A stretch of DNA of 64,000 nucleotides from Dyella silvae (GTDB taxonomy: Bacteria; Pseudomonadota; Gammaproteobacteria; Xanthomonadales; Rhodanobacteraceae): positions 310,001 to 374,000 of the forward strand of contig NZ_JAPJBQ010000002.1 in NCBI RefSeq assembly GCF_026421305.1, given 5' to 3'. The position numbers were made by a program, and so were the translations under genes. Shown piece after piece: positions 56,805 to 64,000 of the stretch. The notes beneath the pieces were generated by a model. That model was not told the DNA's origin. It saw only the letters and a program-made list of their open reading frames with translations, and did no database searches. Numbering within the stretch: the first letter of the stretch is position 1; each line of letters opens with the position of its first letter.

Positions 56805-56853
56805 GCGGACGCTTGTCCGCTTGTCCGTGCCGGTGTCCGCGGACAGCTGTCCG
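56805..56853 (+). promoter_or_regulatory. Clustered TGTCC/GGACA palindromes, probable enhancer-binding protein sites
   Basis: Inverted repeat GCGGAC-GCTT-GTCCGC (56805-56820), a TGTCCG half-site (56822-56827), palindrome TGTCCGCGGACA (56834-56845) and overlapping palindrome CGGACAGCTGTCCG (56840-56853). They lie about 60-105 bp upstream of the sigma-54 element. That is the usual place for activator sites. Further half-sites occur at about 56781 and 56950. Confidence 0.65.
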
Positions 56854-56910
56854 TCGCCGAGCGCCTGTTCCAACTCATTGAAAACAAGCCCTTAATTGGC
56901 GTGTTTTGGC

Positions 56911-56926
56911 TTGGCACGCAGATTGC
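56911..56926 (+). promoter_or_regulatory. Sigma-54 (RpoN) -24/-12 promoter
   Basis: TTGGCACG-CAGA-TTGC matches the sigma-54 consensus TGGCACG-N4-TTGC exactly. The GG (56913-56914) and GC (56925-56926) pairs are separated by 10 nt as required. Transcription would begin near 56937, about 36 nt before the membrane fusion protein start. Confidence 0.85.
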
Positions 56927-56972
56927 TCATATGGGTTCAGGGGCCGCATTGTCCGCGGCCAGGGACCCCACA

Positions 56973-58244
56973 ATGATTCGTGACACTTCCGCTCAAGACC
57001 GGCTGGTTGAGGTCAAAGCCAACCCTAAACGCCGGCTGGTATGGATTGGCTGCGGCGTAGCCGCGCTGGCGCTGCTCGCGCTGTTTGGTCCGCGCATTGG
57101 CCGGCTGTTTTCGGCGGACGCGTCGGTCAGCAGTTCGCGCCTGGCGTTTGCGACCGTGCAGCGCGGTCCGTTCGTGCGCGATATCTCCGCCGAGGGCAAG
57201 GTCGTGGCGGCAGTCAGCCCCACGCTCTACGCCACTTATGGCGGCGCGGTAACGCTCAAGGTGCACGCGGGCGACGCGGTGAAGAAGGGCCAGGTGCTTG
57301 CTGTCGTCGACAGCCCTGAACTCACCAACAAGCTGGCGCAGGAACAAAGCGCTGCCGATGCCATGCAGGTCGATTACCTGCGTGCTCAGATCGACGCGCG
57401 AAAGACCCGCGGCGAGCTGCAGAAGGCTTACGACAACGCGCAGATCGACGAGCAGGGCGCGCAGCGCGACCTCGCGCGTTACCAGAAGGCCTTTGCCCAG
57501 GGCGCTGTGCCGAGCATGAATGTCGATCGCTCCAAGGACGAGCTGGAGAAAGCTCGCATCACCATGGAGCACGCCAAGGCAGACCTCTCCACCAATACCG
57601 ACAGCCTCAACTTCGACATCCAGTCCAAGAAGCTTGCGCATGATCGCCAGCTGTTGTTGGTGAAGGATTTGCAGCGCCAGGTGGACGACCTCAACGTGAA
57701 GTCGCCGGTAGACGGCCAGGTGGGTCAGCTGTTTATCGCCGAACGCGCCACCGTCGCCAAGGATGCCCAGCTGCTGAGCGTCATCGACCTCAGTGCGCTG
57801 GAAGTGGAAATGAAGGTGCCGGAAAGCTTCGCGCGTGATCTCGGCATCGGCATGACCGGCGAGATCAGCGGCAACGGCAGCACCTGGAAGGGCCTGGTCA
57901 GCGCCATCTCGCCTGAAGTGGTCAATGGTGAAGTGGCTGCCCGCCTGCGCTTCGACGGCCAGACGCCCAAGCAGTTGCGCCAGAACCAGCGCCTGTCCGT
58001 GCGCATCCTGCTCGACAAGCGCGACAACGTGTTGACCGTGCAGCGCGGCTCCTTTGTGGACGAATCCGGCGGCAGCTACGCCTACATCGTGCACGACGGC
58101 GTGGCGGAGAAACATCCGATCCGCGTCGGCGCCAGCAGCATCGACAAAGTGGAGATTCTCGAGGGCCTGAATGAAGGCGACAACATCGTGATCTCCGGTA
58201 CCGACAGCTTCAAGGGCGCCCAGCGCGTCGCCATCAGCAACTAA
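56973..58244 (+). CDS. Efflux membrane fusion protein (HlyD/MacA-type periplasmic adaptor)
   Basis: A 423-residue adaptor with an N-terminal membrane anchor (about 24-44, WIGCGVAALALLALFGPRI). A lipoyl/barrel-sandwich domain (VSPTLYATYGGAVTLKVHAGDAVKKGQVLAVVDSPE) is followed by a long coiled-coil hairpin (about 115-225, rich in Ala/Gln/Lys/Glu), the second lipoyl half (LNVKSPVDGQVGQLFI), and beta-barrel and membrane-proximal domains. It would bridge the inner-membrane ABC permease to an outer-membrane channel, or capture substrate. The start is at 56973 (MIRDTSAQDRLVEV). It heads the sigma-54 operon, and the ATPase follows 21 bp later. Confidence 0.9.
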   Translation: MIRDTSAQDRLVEVKANPKRRLVWIGCGVAALALLALFGPRIGRLFSADASVSSSRLAFATVQRGPFVRDISAEGKVVAAVSPTLYATYGGAVTLKVHAGDAVKKGQVLAVVDSPELTNKLAQEQSAADAMQVDYLRAQIDARKTRGELQKAYDNAQIDEQGAQRDLARYQKAFAQGAVPSMNVDRSKDELEKARITMEHAKADLSTNTDSLNFDIQSKKLAHDRQLLLVKDLQRQVDDLNVKSPVDGQVGQLFIAERATVAKDAQLLSVIDLSALEVEMKVPESFARDLGIGMTGEISGNGSTWKGLVSAISPEVVNGEVAARLRFDGQTPKQLRQNQRLSVRILLDKRDNVLTVQRGSFVDESGGSYAYIVHDGVAEKHPIRVGASSIDKVEILEGLNEGDNIVISGTDSFKGAQRVAISN

Positions 58245-58265
58245 CCACCACCAAGGGACAACACC

Positions 58266-58988
58266 ATGCTCAAGATGACTCATCTGTCCAAGGTCTACCG
58301 CACCGAAGTGGTGGAGACCTATGCGCTGCGCGACTTCAACATCAACGTGAACGAAGGCGAGTTCGTGGCCGTGACCGGTCCGTCCGGTTCGGGCAAGACC
58401 ACCTTCCTCACCATCGCCGGTCTGCTGGAAACCTTCACCGGCGGCCAGTACCACCTCGATGGCGTGGAGGTGAGCAACCTCAATGACAACGAGCGCTCGC
58501 GCATCCGCAACGAGAAGATCGGCTTCATCTTCCAGGCGTTCAACCTCATTCCCGACCTCAACGTGTTCGACAACGTTGAAGTGCCGCTGCGCTATCGCGG
58601 CATGAAGGCGCCGGAACGCAAGCAGCGCATCATGGACGCCCTGGAGCGCGTCGGTCTCGCCTCGCGCGCCAAGCACTATCCGGCGGAACTCTCGGGCGGT
58701 CAGCAGCAGCGCGTTGCCATTGCGCGTGCGCTGGCAGGCTCGCCGCGTCTGCTGCTGGCGGACGAACCGACCGGCAACCTGGATACGCAGATGGCCCGCG
58801 GCGTGATGGAGTTGCTGGAAGAAATCCATCGCGAAGGCGCCACCATCGTCATGGTCACGCACGATCCGGAACTTGCGGCCCGCGCACAGCGCAACGTGCA
58901 CATTATCGACGGCCAGGTGGTCGATCTCGCCGAGGATCCGCGCTTCCACCATGCCGTGCACGCGGCGCGCGCCAACTCGCCAGCCTGA
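58266..58988 (+). CDS. ABC transporter ATP-binding protein, LolD/MacB type
   Basis: A 240-residue ATPase. Walker A GPSGSGKTT (38-46), Q-loop FIFQAFNLIPDLNVFDNVEVPL, signature LSGGQQQRVAIARAL (142-156), Walker B LLLADEPTGNLD (162-173) and H-loop VTHDPELA. The sequence type is that of LolD/MacB/FtsE-like exporters that work by mechanotransmission instead of transmembrane substrate passage. It presumably powers the permeases encoded directly downstream. One ATPase gene serves four permease genes, so alternative permease pairs may share it. Confidence 0.94.
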   Translation: MLKMTHLSKVYRTEVVETYALRDFNINVNEGEFVAVTGPSGSGKTTFLTIAGLLETFTGGQYHLDGVEVSNLNDNERSRIRNEKIGFIFQAFNLIPDLNVFDNVEVPLRYRGMKAPERKQRIMDALERVGLASRAKHYPAELSGGQQQRVAIARALAGSPRLLLADEPTGNLDTQMARGVMELLEEIHREGATIVMVTHDPELAARAQRNVHIIDGQVVDLAEDPRFHHAVHAARANSPA

Positions 58989-59051
58989 ACCTTTTGCATC
59001 GGGAGCCTCCCGGGAACGGGAGGCCGCTATCGCCCTTGAGCGGACGACCAC

Positions 59052-60365
59052 ATGTTTGCCTACTACCTCCAGCTTGGATTGCGCAGTCTGCGAAAGAACC
59101 CGTTGCTGACGGTGTTGATGGTGATGGCGATCGGGTGCGGCGTGGCGGCATCGATGACCACGTACTCGGTGTTTCGCGCCACCTCCAATAACCCGATTCC
59201 GAACAAGTCATCGCAGCTCTACGTGCCTCAGATCGATAACTGGGGCCCGGAGGAGGCTGCCGAAAACAAGGGTGAGCCGCCGAGCTCATTGAGCTATACC
59301 GACGCTATCAACCTGATGCGGGACAAGCGCGCCAAGCGGCAAACCGCGCTGTACCCGGTCGCGCTATCGATCGTTCCCGACGACATGAATATGCTGCCGT
59401 TCCGCGAGAACAGCTACGCCGTCTACGCGGATGCGTTCCCGATGTTCGATGTGCCGTTTCTGTTCGGTGGCGGCTGGACAGCCAGCGAAGACAACGCGCA
59501 TGCCGCCGTGGCGGTGATCGGCCGCGAGCTCAATGACAAGCTGTTCCATGGCGCCAACAGCGTGGGCCGTGAGATCAACCTCAATGGGCGCACTTACCGC
59601 ATCACGGGTGTGATGGATACCTGGAATCCGGAGCCGATGTTCTACGACCCGGTGAACACCAACGCTTTTGCCGACCCCACCGAGGTGTTCATTCCGTACA
59701 CCCGTGCGATCGAGCTGGAAATGCCCACGTTCGGCAATAACAACTGCAACAAGGACCCGGGCAATGGCTGGGATTCCTGGGTGCATTCGGAGTGTGTGTG
59801 GACGGGGTTCTGGGTCGAGCTGCCTACCAAGGCCGATGCCGATGCCTATCGCCGGTACCTCGACGGGTATGTGGCCGAGCAGCAACGTAGCGGCCGCTTC
59901 AAATGGCCGAAGAACAATCGTCTCCGCAATGTGACCGAGTGGCTGGACTTCCAGAAGGTCGTGCCACAGGAAGCCAAAGTGTCGCTGCTGGTTTCCATGG
60001 GCTTTCTGCTGATCTGCCTGGTTAACACGGTGGGCCTGCTGCTTGCCAAGTTCATGCGCCGCGCACCGGAAATCGGCGTGCGCCGCGCACTCGGTGCGTC
60101 GCGCAAAGAGATCTACACGCAGTTCCTGATCGAGGCAGGTGCGGTGGGCCTGGCCGGTGGCGTGGTTGGCTTGCTGTTGACCGGGGTCGGGGTGATCGGT
60201 GTGTCGCTGGTATTCGACCCGCAGATCGCGCGCCTTGCCGAACTGGACACCTCGCTGGTGGCCCTGACCCTGCTAGTGGCCGTGCTCGCCACCGTGCTGG
60301 CGGCTTTCTATCCGACCTGGCGTGCGGCGCAAGTACAGCCGGCCTGGCAGCTGAAATCCAACTGA
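59052..60365 (+). CDS. ABC permease of the MacB/FtsX type, A1
   Basis: A 437-residue permease with one N-terminal transmembrane helix (about 20-42, LLTVLMVMAIGCGVAASMTTYSVF). A large periplasmic MacB-PCD-like domain (45-305) and three C-terminal helices in the FtsX domain (about 310-430, PEIGVRRALGASRKEIYTQFL) follow. The periplasmic part carries a conserved pair of Cys in NNCNKDPGNGWDSWVHSECVW. It ends AAQVQPAWQLKSN. It is a paralogue of A2 (61684-63006), which has the same ending and the same Cys pair. It is probably one half of a heterodimer with the B1 product. Confidence 0.9.
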   Translation: MFAYYLQLGLRSLRKNPLLTVLMVMAIGCGVAASMTTYSVFRATSNNPIPNKSSQLYVPQIDNWGPEEAAENKGEPPSSLSYTDAINLMRDKRAKRQTALYPVALSIVPDDMNMLPFRENSYAVYADAFPMFDVPFLFGGGWTASEDNAHAAVAVIGRELNDKLFHGANSVGREINLNGRTYRITGVMDTWNPEPMFYDPVNTNAFADPTEVFIPYTRAIELEMPTFGNNNCNKDPGNGWDSWVHSECVWTGFWVELPTKADADAYRRYLDGYVAEQQRSGRFKWPKNNRLRNVTEWLDFQKVVPQEAKVSLLVSMGFLLICLVNTVGLLLAKFMRRAPEIGVRRALGASRKEIYTQFLIEAGAVGLAGGVVGLLLTGVGVIGVSLVFDPQIARLAELDTSLVALTLLVAVLATVLAAFYPTWRAAQVQPAWQLKSN

Positions 60366-60376
60366 GGCTTTCGACC

Positions 60377-61609
60377 ATGCTGCATATCAAACCTATTCTC
60401 GTTGCCCTCAAGCGCCACAAGGCGGGCACGATTCTCATCGCCATGCAGATCGCGCTGACCCTGGCCATCGTCTGCAATGCGCTGTTCATCATCGATCAGC
60501 GCCTCGATCGCATTGCGCGGCCGACTGGCCTGGACGAATCGAATCTGGTGATCATCCGCAACCGCTGGGTGGGCGTGACGGACGAAGCGACCGGCCCACT
60601 GATTCATGGCGACGTGCAGGCGTTGCGCCAGTTGCCGGGCGTGCAGGACGCGATCTCGATCAACTCCTATCCGCTGGCCGGTGGTGGCTGGTCTACCGGT
60701 GTCCGCGTCAATGTGGATGACAAGAAATCCAAGGCGCACACCACGCTGTACTTCTCCGACGAACACATGTTGCCCACGATGGGCGCCCGGTTGATTGCAG
60801 GCCGCAACTTCACGCCGGATGAGGTCACGGACGCCAAGGCCAATGCGGTGGATACGCCCGCGGTGATCATCATCACCAAGGCGTTGGCCCACGACCTGTT
60901 TCCGGACGGTTCCGCACTGGGCAAGTCGGTCTATGTCAGCGACACCAAGAAGCCGAGCACCATCGTCGGCATCGTCGAGCGCATGCAGGTCCCCTGGAAC
61001 TCCAGTTGGGCCGATGCATGGGCCGAGAATGCTGTGTTCCAGCCATACGTGCTCATGTATTCGGGCAACGTGCTACTGATCCGCACCAAGCCCGGTCAGC
61101 AGGATGCCGTAATGAAGTCGGCGCCGGAGATGCTGTTCAAACTTAACCGCATGCGCGTGTTTCCGAAGGAAAACGGCGTGCGCACCTTTGCCAATCAGCG
61201 CGAGAGCATCTACAAGCGCGATCGCGGCATGGCCATCCTGATGGGTGTGGTGTGCCTGGTGTTGTTGGGTATTACCGCGGCAGGCATCGTGGGCCTGACC
61301 AGCTTCTGGGTGGGTCAGCGCCGCAAGCAGATCGGCGTGCGCCGCGCGCTGGGTGCGACCAAGCGCGACATCCTGAGTTACTTCCTCACGGAGAACCTGC
61401 TGATCGGCACCGTAGGTGTGCTGATCGGTGCGCTGATGGCCATTGGCATGAATCTGTGGCTGGTGACGCAGTTCGAAATGGCGCGGTTGTCGCTGGCTTA
61501 TGTGGCGATTGGCGTGGTGGCCTTGCTGCTGCTGGGGCAGGGCGCGGTACTCGCGCCGGCGATGCGCGCCTCGCGCGTGCAGCCGGTGGAAGCGACGCGG
61601 TCGGTGTAA
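60377..61609 (+). CDS. ABC permease of the MacB/FtsX type, B1
   Basis: A 410-residue permease starting 11 bp after A1. Helix 1 is at about 17-37 (GTILIAMQIALTLAIVCNALFII), followed by a periplasmic MacB-PCD-like domain and three C-terminal helices with FWVGQRRKQIGVRRALGATKRDILSYFL. It is distinct in sequence from the A type and lacks the A-type Cys pair. It ends RASRVQPVEATRSV. It is paralogous to the truncated B2 gene at 63022, so the A-B pair has been duplicated as a unit. Confidence 0.9.
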   Translation: MLHIKPILVALKRHKAGTILIAMQIALTLAIVCNALFIIDQRLDRIARPTGLDESNLVIIRNRWVGVTDEATGPLIHGDVQALRQLPGVQDAISINSYPLAGGGWSTGVRVNVDDKKSKAHTTLYFSDEHMLPTMGARLIAGRNFTPDEVTDAKANAVDTPAVIIITKALAHDLFPDGSALGKSVYVSDTKKPSTIVGIVERMQVPWNSSWADAWAENAVFQPYVLMYSGNVLLIRTKPGQQDAVMKSAPEMLFKLNRMRVFPKENGVRTFANQRESIYKRDRGMAILMGVVCLVLLGITAAGIVGLTSFWVGQRRKQIGVRRALGATKRDILSYFLTENLLIGTVGVLIGALMAIGMNLWLVTQFEMARLSLAYVAIGVVALLLLGQGAVLAPAMRASRVQPVEATRSV

Positions 61610-61683
61610 GGCATGACGATGATGCGCAGGTACGGCATGGCTGGTTTGGCACGGGCACGGGCCCTGAATGTGGCGAGGGATCA

Positions 61684-63006
61684 ATGAGCGGCATGTTTGT
61701 CCATAACTTGCGACTGGGCGCGGCCAGCCTTCGGCGCAACGTCCTGCTGACGGCATTGATGATCATGTCGATCGGCTTCGGCGTTGCGGCGTCGATGGTG
61801 ACGTTCGCCGTGTTCCGGGCGGTGTCGGGCGATCCGATTCCGCAGAAGTCGTCCAGGTTGTTCGTGCCGCTGATCGATAACCGGGGTCCGCAGTACAACC
61901 GTCATGGCGAGCCGCCGTCGGCGCTCAACTACGTCGATGCGATGGCGCTGATGCGCGCGCACAAGGCAGCGCGGCAGACCATGCTGTTCCCGGTGGGCCT
62001 TTCGGTGATGCCTGACGACCCGCACCGTATGCCCTTCAAGGCGGTCGGCTACGCCACCTATAGCGACTTCTTCGCGATGTTCGACGTGCCGTTTCTGTAC
62101 GGGAATGGTTGGGGTGGCGAACAGGACGATGCGCGCGCACCGGTGATCGTGATCAGCCGCGCGCTCAACCAGAAGTTGTTTGGCGGCAGCAACAGCGTGG
62201 GGCGCCAGATTACGCTGGACGATCGCCAGTACCGCATCGTCGGCGTGACTGACACCTGGGATCCCAAGCCGCGTTTCTTCGACATTTTCAACGGCAACCT
62301 CTATGCCGATCCGTCGCAGATCTATATCCCCTTTACCTATGCCATGACACAGCACATCGACACTTACGGCAGCAACAATTGTGGCAGCGACGGCAAGCGC
62401 GGCGACAGCTGGGATAGCTGGCTGCAGGGCGAGTGTGTGTGGATCAGCCCGTGGGTAGAGCTGGACGATGCCGCGCAGGTGCAGGCTTACCGGCAGTTCC
62501 TCGATGGCTATGCGCGCGAGCAGCGTGATGCCGGCCGCTTCAACTGGGCGCCCAACAACCGCCTTCGCGACGTGCGTGAGTGGCTCGACTTTCAGCATGC
62601 CGTGCCGCCGGAGAGCCGCATCTCGCTCTCGCTTGCGCTGGGTTTCCTGGTGATCTGCCTTGTCAATACCATCGGTCTGCTGTTGGCGAAATTCATGCGT
62701 CGTGCGCCCGAAATCGGTGTGCGCCGTGCGCTGGGCGCGTCGCGTGCGGACATCTATCGCCAGTTTCTGGCGGAAGCGGCCATGGTCGGTCTGGCCGGCG
62801 GCGCTCTGGGTCTGGTGCTCACGGCGATGGGCATGTTGGGGCTTGGGCTGGTGTTTGAGCCGCAGATCGCGCGTCTGGCTCAGCTGGATGCATCGCTGGT
62901 ACTGCTGACTCTGCTGGTGGCAATCGTGGCCACGGTGCTGGCAGCGTTCTATCCCACCTGGCGGGCGGCGCAAGTGCAGCCGGCCTGGCAGTTGAAGTCG
63001 AACTGA
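61684..63006 (+). CDS. ABC permease of the MacB/FtsX type, A2
   Basis: A 440-residue permease paralogous to A1: SLRRNVLLTALMIMSIGFGVAASMVTFAVFR, a periplasmic domain with NNCGSDGKRGDSWDSWLQGECVW, and a nearly identical C-terminal FtsX domain ending AAQVQPAWQLKSN. Start 61684 (MSGMFVHNLRLGAASL), with an in-frame ATG at 61693. The 75-bp gap after B1 has no terminator. The periplasmic domains of A1 and A2 have diverged much more than the membrane parts, which suggests different substrates or partners on the same engine. Confidence 0.9.
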   Translation: MSGMFVHNLRLGAASLRRNVLLTALMIMSIGFGVAASMVTFAVFRAVSGDPIPQKSSRLFVPLIDNRGPQYNRHGEPPSALNYVDAMALMRAHKAARQTMLFPVGLSVMPDDPHRMPFKAVGYATYSDFFAMFDVPFLYGNGWGGEQDDARAPVIVISRALNQKLFGGSNSVGRQITLDDRQYRIVGVTDTWDPKPRFFDIFNGNLYADPSQIYIPFTYAMTQHIDTYGSNNCGSDGKRGDSWDSWLQGECVWISPWVELDDAAQVQAYRQFLDGYAREQRDAGRFNWAPNNRLRDVREWLDFQHAVPPESRISLSLALGFLVICLVNTIGLLLAKFMRRAPEIGVRRALGASRADIYRQFLAEAAMVGLAGGALGLVLTAMGMLGLGLVFEPQIARLAQLDASLVLLTLLVAIVATVLAAFYPTWRAAQVQPAWQLKSN

Positions 63007-63021
63007 GGGGAGGAACGAACT

Positions 63022-64000
63022 ATGCAGATCAAACCAATCCTCGCCGCACTTCGCCGTCACAAGGCAGGCACGCTACTGATTGCGATGCAGATCGCACTCA
63101 CGCTGGCCATCGTCTGCAACGCGCTGTTCATCATCCAGGAGCGCCTTGCCCACTTGTCCGAGCCCACGGGCATCGACGAGGCCAACATCTTCGTCGTCAA
63201 AAACGAATGGGTGGGGGCGCCGGATACCATCAAGGTCGATGCCATGATGCGCGAGGACTTGCAGGTGCTGCGGCAAGTACCTGGCGTGCAGGACGTGACG
63301 CCGAGCAATTCGTACCCCTTGCGCGGCAACGGCTGGGACGACGCCGTCAAGCTTAATCCGGAGCAGCTGCAGGACACCTCCGGGGCGACCATCTACTTCG
63401 CCGACGAACACTTCATCGACACGCTGGGCCTGAAACTCACCGCGGGGCGCAACTTCCGTGCGGAAGAAATTGGCCGTATGGATATGCGCTACAAGCTCGC
63501 GCCGCCGGTCGTCATCATCACCAAGGCGCTGGCGGACAAGTTGTTCCCGGATGGGAATGCGGTGGGCAAGACCATTTATCTGATTGGCGGCCCTGGCACC
63601 GTCGTGGGTGTGGTGGATCTGCTGCAGGCCCAGAGCGTCGACCGCTGGGCCTCGGGCTTTGCCTATCGATCGGTGATCATCCCCGAGCGGCTGGCCATGT
63701 CGCTGGGTTCGTTCTACATCGTGCGCACCAAGCCGGGGCAGCGGGATGCGGCCATGCGTGCGGCCTACACGGCGCTGTTTGCGCACAACCCGCGGCGCGT
63801 GATCAATGACGATGACGGCATGCTGAGCTTCACCGAGGTGCGATCGCGTGCTTACGAGCGCGACCGCGGCATGGCCATCCTGATGGGCGTGATCAGCGTC
63901 GTGCTGCTGGCGATTACGGCGGCGGGCATCGTGGGCCTGACCAGCTTCTGGGTGGGTCAGCGGCGCAAGCAGATTGGCGTGCGCCGTGCGTTGGGCGCCA
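63022..64000 (+). CDS. ABC permease of the MacB/FtsX type, B2 (truncated by window edge)
   Basis: ATG at 63022, 15 bp after A2 and with GAGGGGAGGAA upstream, opens a frame that continues to the right edge (326 codons seen). It begins MQIKPILAALRRHKAGTLLI and runs through AMQIALTLAIVCNALFII, closely matching B1. It reaches FWVGQRRKQIGVRRALGA at the edge, so the last two helices are missing. Paralogue of B1. The operon may continue beyond the window, possibly to a sensor kinase and sigma-54 response regulator. Confidence 0.9.
   Translation, partial: MQIKPILAALRRHKAGTLLIAMQIALTLAIVCNALFIIQERLAHLSEPTGIDEANIFVVKNEWVGAPDTIKVDAMMREDLQVLRQVPGVQDVTPSNSYPLRGNGWDDAVKLNPEQLQDTSGATIYFADEHFIDTLGLKLTAGRNFRAEEIGRMDMRYKLAPPVVIITKALADKLFPDGNAVGKTIYLIGGPGTVVGVVDLLQAQSVDRWASGFAYRSVIIPERLAMSLGSFYIVRTKPGQRDAAMRAAYTALFAHNPRRVINDDDGMLSFTEVRSRAYERDRGMAILMGVISVVLLAITAAGIVGLTSFWVGQRRKQIGVRRALGA

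Follow-up and report, generated by a model that had tools for sequence, protein, structure and literature searches.

How many permeases can a single transport engine serve? ATP-binding cassette (ABC) exporters normally combine one ATPase with one permease set. In Dyella silvae (genome 4.45 Mb), an operon that begins near the right end of the window analysed here, a stretch of 64,000 nucleotides (C15:310001-374000, where C15 marks contig coordinates), departs from this scheme with one ATPase gene followed by several pairs of permease genes, A and B, behind a sigma-54 promoter. A preliminary description of the window had reported this exporter with two permease pairs; the observation is confirmed as real and larger than described. 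We are highly confident about the operon anatomy and the sigma-54 control of the exporter. With a little less than even confidence, we read the system as a type VII exporter of the MacB kind, whose permease heads would be interchangeable and which would be dedicated to a family of tiny proteins, its presumptive cargo.

The operon runs in the order adaptor, ATPase, A1-B1-A2-B2-A3-B3, DUF885 protein, sigma-54 response regulator and histidine kinase; the window end truncates it, and the remainder was read from the contig beyond 64000. On the plus strand of the window lie the periplasmic adaptor (membrane fusion protein) P0001 at 56973..58244, the ABC ATPase P0002 at 58266..58988, which is the only ATPase found in the operon, and the permeases A1 (59052..60365), B1 (60377..61609), A2 (61684..63006, 63% identity to A1) and B2 (63022..64000, running past the window end; C15:373022-374251). 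Beyond the window follow A3 (C15:374287-375591), B3 (C15:375602-376825), the DUF885 protein (C15:376919-378724; PF05960, E 1.5e-177), the response regulator (C15:378878-380230) with receiver, sigma-54 activator domain and Fis-type helix-turn-helix (HTH), and the HAMP-PAS histidine kinase (C15:380640-382022). The gene order first given thus holds for adaptor, ATPase and A1-B1-A2-B2, and regulator and kinase were found to the right, where the preliminary description had pointed; two pairs as a finished unit had to be rejected because the contig holds a third. The permease genes are spaced by 10-74 bp. The adaptor shares 96% identity with its Dyella solisilvae counterpart, and its eleven best named matches all belong to Dyella.

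A perfect -24/-12 element, TGGCACG-N4-TTGCT (TGGCACGCAGATTGCT), occupies 56912..56927 on the plus strand, one base to the right of the 56911-56926 originally reported. The cluster of TGTCC/GGACA palindromes described upstream of it is likewise present and, read directly, comprises three: GCGGAC-GCTT-GTCCGC (56805..56820), which offers additional enhancer half-sites, the main enhancer or upstream activating sequence TGTCCGCGGACA (56834..56845), 78 bp before the -24 box, and GGACAGCTGTCC (56841..56852), which overlaps the main palindrome. Perfect -24/-12 sites number ten in the Dyella silvae genome, compared with one for the reversed pattern.

Conservation was followed in one draw of 97 genomes of the family, with 273 other genomes of the class for comparison. 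The loci examined were 94 orthologous ones, Dyella silvae included, and one paralogue (G014_L127); the paralogue, a genome whose adaptor is split over two contigs (G043) and two genomes with no adaptor match (G023, G056) were left out. All 94 orthologous loci carry a -24/-12 site of at least 10/12 upstream of the adaptor (63 perfect, 23 with 11 and eight with 10 positions matching), where the rest of the same loci predicts 0.04 per upstream window by chance for at least 10/12 and 0.00008 for 12/12. The palindrome TGTCCGCGGACA, with at most one mismatch, precedes the promoter in 78 of them, in two distance classes that differ by about one helical turn (its distance to the -24 box is 75-81 bp in 63 loci and 66-69 bp in 15); the remaining 16 have TGTCC/GGACA half-sites at other spacings. 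All 94 loci also have TGTCCG in the 220 bp before the promoter, against 8.8 expected. Combined enhancer and promoter were found in 81 of the 97 family genomes and in none of the 273 others of the class, and the reversed control gave 0.

Arrays were counted in the 83 loci with a visible regulator. The 11 left out comprise three with no regulator in the sequence examined (G008, G025, G032), one with none before the contig ends 5 kb further on (G061) and seven that break off earlier. The activator loop of the 83 regulators reads GAYTGA in 73, GAFTGA in seven and neither in three, and the receiver motif is QDMNF in 72 and IADMNF in ten. All components of a sigma-54 regulon are therefore at hand: rpoN in the Dyella silvae genome, the -24/-12 element, an upstream enhancer and an AAA+ activator with a GAFTGA-type loop and a Fis-type HTH. 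The RpoN control proposed for the operon is well supported by this conserved promoter and enhancer together with rpoN and the linked sigma-54 regulator, which is predicted to bind the TGTCCGCGGACA palindrome because the two are linked and co-conserved. PMC3162934 presents the regulation of envelope functions by sigma-54 as a common theme, and its text gave no match for 'permease', 'ABC' or 'FtsX'.

Two features of the distal operon were observed besides. Two perfect 13-base arms around a loop of 4 (AGCCCTCCCCTGT) form an inverted repeat between the DUF885 gene and the regulator at L001 14735-14764 (L001 numbers the stretch of the Dyella silvae locus, with the A2 start at L001 7684), and regulator and kinase may be transcribed separately from the exporter genes. 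Between regulator and kinase, L001 16300-16611 encodes a 103-residue protein with a signal-like start, possibly an accessory sensor; it occupies the same position in seven loci, six at 57-100% identity and one weakly at 32%.

The arrangement had been called unusual, and in the family it is instead the rule, with the adaptor found in 95 of 97 genomes. Preliminary work had suggested searching relatives for operons with one or two pairs, and these exist within a much wider range: counted as A genes, pairs number one in 22 loci, two in seven, three in five, four in 16, five in nine, six in nine, seven in seven, eight in one, nine in four, eleven in two and twelve in one (G022). The genes follow a strict (AB)n order in 80/83 loci, with irregular order in G028 and G040 and an extra B in G059, and A and B are equal in number in 81/83. 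A single ATPase match was found in 81/83 loci; the other two are G069, whose two part-matches lie side by side and point to a split frame, and G040. In the latter (G040_L044), a divergent second exporter set, adaptor-ATPase-B-A, follows the five-pair array. The paralogue G014_L127 is another such second set (adaptor-ATPase-A-B, adaptor 37% identical), with a best promoter site of 8/12 and no regulator match in the stretch examined. Outside the family, an adaptor match at 1e-50 occurred in six of the 273 genomes (37-51% identity), two of which keep the same gene order.

Separate transcripts, each pair with its own ATPase, were named early as what would overturn the proposal. This arrangement is rejected by the single ATPase match in 81/83 loci, the short gaps within arrays (medians of 11 bp from A to B and 58 bp from B to A) and the absence of a second perfect -24/-12 element inside any array. 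The scan for internal promoters covered the -24/-12 type; 31 matches at 11/12 and 476 at 10/12 were not placed, and outside the adaptor promoters the 5.0 million positions scanned held one other perfect site, behind the kinase of G082.

Could the arrays instead be neutral remnants, tandem duplicates of which most pairs are idle, expressed but dispensable? A copy number that ranges from one to twelve among relatives would fit, yet 727 of the 730 matches to A and B cover the full length, and A and B are matched not only in number but also in phylogeny. The best matches of an A and of its B partner agree on the same foreign pair in 15,209 of 18,166 cases (84%, against 20% by chance), and because of this agreement the pair is taken as the unit of evolution, with A and B co-evolving. 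In all 34 genomes with at least five pairs, the periplasmic identities of A and B are positively correlated, significantly so by shuffling in 21. Moreover, the A and B trees lend no support to recent tandem amplification: none of the 360 A leaves or 360 B leaves has a purely same-genome sister, so the pair duplications predate the splits between the nearest sampled genomes. We consider neutral remnants very improbable.

The preliminary observation that membrane parts are alike and periplasmic domains divergent holds for within-genome paralogues, whose mean periplasmic identity is 40% for A (55-63% in the membrane parts) and 32% for B (52-61%). The trees and domain-wise comparison that had been recommended add that paralogues with the same membrane-part identity as reciprocal-best orthologues have a lower periplasmic identity. 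The gap amounts to about 4-14 points for A and 7-21 points for B; it appears in every bin holding both kinds of comparison, and its extreme values come from sparsely filled bins. This deficit fits periplasmic diversification or, equally well, conversion and shared constraint acting on the membrane parts.

The identity of the components points to the MacB-like fold without leading to a named system. A Pfam scan of A1, B1, A3 and B3 placed all four above the cut-offs for both MacB_PCD and FtsX, the domain combination taken to mark type VII transporters. AlphaFold models of A1 (pLDDT 83.6) and B1 (pLDDT 90.4) have MacB (5gko) as nearest solved fold, with TMq 0.67 and 0.68, respectively, and sequence searches of the PDB agree that MacB is the best solved relative. 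The adaptor exceeds the cut-offs for HlyD_D23 (3.3e-12) and RND_mfp, as a tripartite-efflux adaptor should. No gene for an outer-membrane TolC duct was seen in the operon, and the rest of the genome was not searched for one. All three A permeases match the N-terminal half of ADOP (TIGR03434) and all three B its C-terminal half; because they match opposite halves, the A-B pair looks like the split counterpart of a fused double permease, and by analogy with LolCE it is presumably a heterodimer.

MacAB-TolC shares with the system the MacB_PCD and FtsX domains, an HlyD-type adaptor and the closest sequence and fold relationship; the differences are a separate ATPase, heterologous A/B pairs, one to twelve pairs per ATPase and sigma-54 control. 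MacB proper was rejected on the separate ATPase gene and on permease scores of 44-53 bits against 966 for the NF007826 equivalog. DarD is the closest curated equivalog for the ATPase (259 bits, ahead of LolD with 220 and FtsE with 217, all under the equivalog cut-offs) and DarC the best-scoring one for the adaptor; in the double-length DarB model, B3 aligns with the second half. DarBCD was rejected nonetheless, as scores remain far under the curated cut-offs (DarC 86 of 450, DarD 259 of 375 and DarB at most 36 of 700 bits) and the permeases here are split and multiplied. Darobactin genes were not noticed, although no search was aimed at them. ADOP itself was rejected since matches are half-length and reach 157-193 bits against a cut-off of 622; here two separate permease genes stand with a cognate ATPase. 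The genome has further FtsX-type permeases at C15:580941-582677, C15:455654-457339 and C17:183806-185477, which comprise two open frames of 842 and 860 residues, in each of which FtsX matches twice, and a separate pair.

The fold matches of A1 and B1 also include BceAB, YtrEF, HrtBA and YbbAP, and these type VII relatives raise a different possibility, namely that the exporter protects the envelope by clearing foreign antimicrobial peptides or hydrophobic compounds, with hydrolases digesting them and the tiny proteins modulating transporter or kinase rather than being cargo. BceAB and MacAB, with their part in drug resistance, would be its analogues. Against it, the permeases are not BceB-like, consisting of two chains with MacB-like domains. 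We regard envelope protection as possible, and as short of probable.

The case for tiny proteins comes from the regulon. In Dyella silvae, the combined enhancer-promoter site occurs four times, before the exporter, before tiny genes at C3:17512 and C19:136439 and before an S33 hydrolase gene. An S33 paralogue (C16:354228-355322, minus strand) is a possible fifth target, with a one-mismatch palindrome (C16:355472-355483) 150 bp before it. Across the family there are at least 150 sites, and the counts given here are of the 150 listed: the exporter follows 41 of them and a tiny-protein gene, starting 40-74 bp downstream of the site, follows 79. The remaining 30 stand before something else, two of these being overlapping matches of one promoter. 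A tiny-protein profile matches 62 of 97 genomes (E 0.01; weakly in G001, G032 and G083), with up to seven copies. In the 42 genomes whose sites are listed completely, an exact site immediately precedes 77 of the 98 tiny-protein matches, and another 12 come second in a tandem. Further, tiny proteins were detected in 54 of 61 loci with several pairs and in three of 22 with one pair, counting the weak matches of G001 and G083 as present.

The 34 tiny proteins retrieved measure 27-73 residues and have a conserved hydrophobic N-terminus (MKFE...LF.ACLLVC...GAM), followed in some by a variable tail and in others by none. Eleven of them (64-73 residues) carry two cysteines near the C-terminus with 8-9 residues between (C-x8-9-C), and 13 (48-58 residues) have a tail without cysteines; 20 of the first 26 retrieved end in glycine. 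A Pfam search of two members gave no family at E up to 1. Of 20 site stretches, nine are without a longer tiny protein, and seven of these hold a 28-residue and one a 27-residue member; the L270 stretch revealed no tiny protein on rereading. The 28-residue members in L271, L273, L274, L276-L279, L281 and L282 form a subclass (MKFETLML.S.F...C...C...AAML-) that is nearly uniform and present in several copies in one genome. Tandem genes, one with a cysteine tail and one without, were observed in L275, L280, L283 and L287. By eye, many tiny-protein promoters (e.g. L165 7370-7470) share a AAATGGCTTAG...GCGGTTTT element between enhancer and -24 box, which was unseen in exporter promoters among the sites listed.

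Hydrolases are linked with the exporter in two ways, because their genes share the regulon site and also occur inside the exporter operon. The S33 hydrolase of Dyella silvae behind a regulon site has a signal-like start, and S33 genes stand behind ten of the 20 other sites listed in the 59 genomes that were searched for S33. The interval from the last pair to the regulator holds an S33 gene in six loci and the DUF885 gene in 28; with three more loci that have S33 within the array, the operon includes an S33 gene in nine. The solved relatives of the DUF885 protein are lipoproteins and one uncharacterised protein; an HExxxxH-like stretch leads us to infer that it is a peptidase. Taken together, the co-regulated tiny proteins and hydrolases suggest that small peptides are what the system handles.

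Systems with such a task are known. According to the part of PMC5985334 at hand, MacAB-TolC exports periplasmic peptides, e.g. STII. The Aat system, as far as the passages of PMC7943197 go, combines a LolC/E-like AatP, a MacA-like adaptor and an outer-membrane protein and secretes small Sec-exported proteins (dispersin/CexE), mostly encoded more than 1 kb away. In those passages AatPABCD resembles the present exporter as an ABC system handling small proteins and differs in its single permease gene aatP, its dedicated acyltransferase AatD, its place on pathogenicity islands and virulence plasmids, and the absence of any sigma-54 regulon from the account. A further precedent is YbbAP-TesA, which draws hydrophobic compounds out of the inner membrane (PMC12646458). 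In the open-access literature, no matched title or abstract opening dealt with such permease arrays or tiny proteins, apart from PMC11928319.

The accessible passages of that source describe dssA of Rhodanobacter R179 as an ABC permease in a 17-gene operon, the loss of which impairs suppression of flg22-induced root growth inhibition, and as conserved across Xanthomonadales and absent from a representative Xylella genome. Arrays of six pairs that also have DUF885, regulator and kinase likewise come to 17 profile-matched genes (G003, G020, G093), to which further small genes would add. From these agreements in size, annotation and conservation, dssA probably belongs to a permease array of this kind; sigma-54 control, permease pairs and tiny proteins are absent from its description in these passages.

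In our tentative model, the kinase-regulator pair would activate the genes for exporter, tiny proteins and hydrolase through sigma-54. The ATPase and adaptor would be shared by all A-B pairs, each of them a heterodimer, and the exporter would be completed by a TolC-type duct encoded elsewhere. The tiny proteins might reach the inner membrane or periplasm via their N-terminal hydrophobic stretch, where their tails would perhaps be trimmed by the co-regulated hydrolases and disulfide-bonded before export. The peptide would then be taken from membrane or periplasm and expelled, analogous to MacAB with STII and Aat with dispersin/CexE. The pairs may differ in periplasmic, cargo-contacting domains, and interchangeable A-B heads would select cargo; such matching of heads to cargo we think unlikely. 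If the dssA operon is an array, the exported output could include molecules that dampen plant immune responses.

Several observations weigh against a dedicated tiny-protein exporter. Ten of the 34 tiny proteins have only 27-28 residues, barely beyond the hydrophobic stretch, and 26 of the 150 tiny-protein matches listed span at most 33 residues; because this tail-less class exists, the hydrophobic stretch appears to be important by itself. In that class it is conserved for its own sake and does more than serve as a signal peptide; the tiny proteins may therefore remain in the membrane. No tiny protein was detected in seven of 61 multi-pair and 19 of 22 single-pair loci; the exporter therefore exists without them, and its original cargo may have been different. 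Nine of the 98 matches are neither behind an exact site nor second in tandem. Pair number does not track tiny-protein copy number in genomes with both (rho -0.11, n=57), and one pair per tiny protein is thereby rejected; over all 83 loci rho is 0.55, driven by presence and absence and uncorrected for relatedness. Promoters without a linked regulator in the sequence examined (G008, G025, G032) and a genome with two enhancer-promoter sites and one tiny-protein gene and no detected adaptor (G023) fit poorly too. Of the idea of periplasmic modules exchanged on one motor, the single motor gene set for several pairs stands; that the pairs share, or physically exchange on, one ATPase is something we infer, and the assignment of dssA goes as far as gene count, annotation and conservation.

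Both the 27-28-residue class and the single-pair loci without tiny proteins count in favour of envelope protection, and so does the kinase's periplasmic loop, which looks short when judged by eye from the sequence. Variable tails and the C-x8-9-C loop in 11 of 34 tiny proteins, in turn, are hard to fit with a plain membrane modulator. The same short loop speaks against peptide signalling, where the tiny proteins would be exported pheromones sensed by the linked kinase and the regulator would amplify exporter and pheromone genes. That kinase and regulator end the exporter operon, that presumed regulator sites precede both exporter and tiny-protein genes, and that the regulator motifs are so conserved would suit a signalling circuit, but a genome often has several different tiny proteins for one linked kinase, and we find signalling improbable.

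The boldest version of the dedicated exporter would be an undescribed secretion class in which up to twelve heterodimers on one ATPase and adaptor each choose a different tiny protein from a diversifying, co-regulated family, co-regulated hydrolases mature the cargo and, in plant-associated members, the exported peptides are what dampens immunity in the case of dssA; the chances of all this are low. If the reading is true, the soil- and plant-dwelling relatives of Dyella and Rhodanobacter would multiply transport specificity without multiplying engines, with as many as twelve permease pairs placed after a single promoter and a single ATPase gene and linked to a tiny-protein family of their own. 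The tiny proteins identified here are concrete candidates for the cargo or partners of a transporter through which common root bacteria may suppress immunity, and the question of which permease serves which cargo becomes directly testable.

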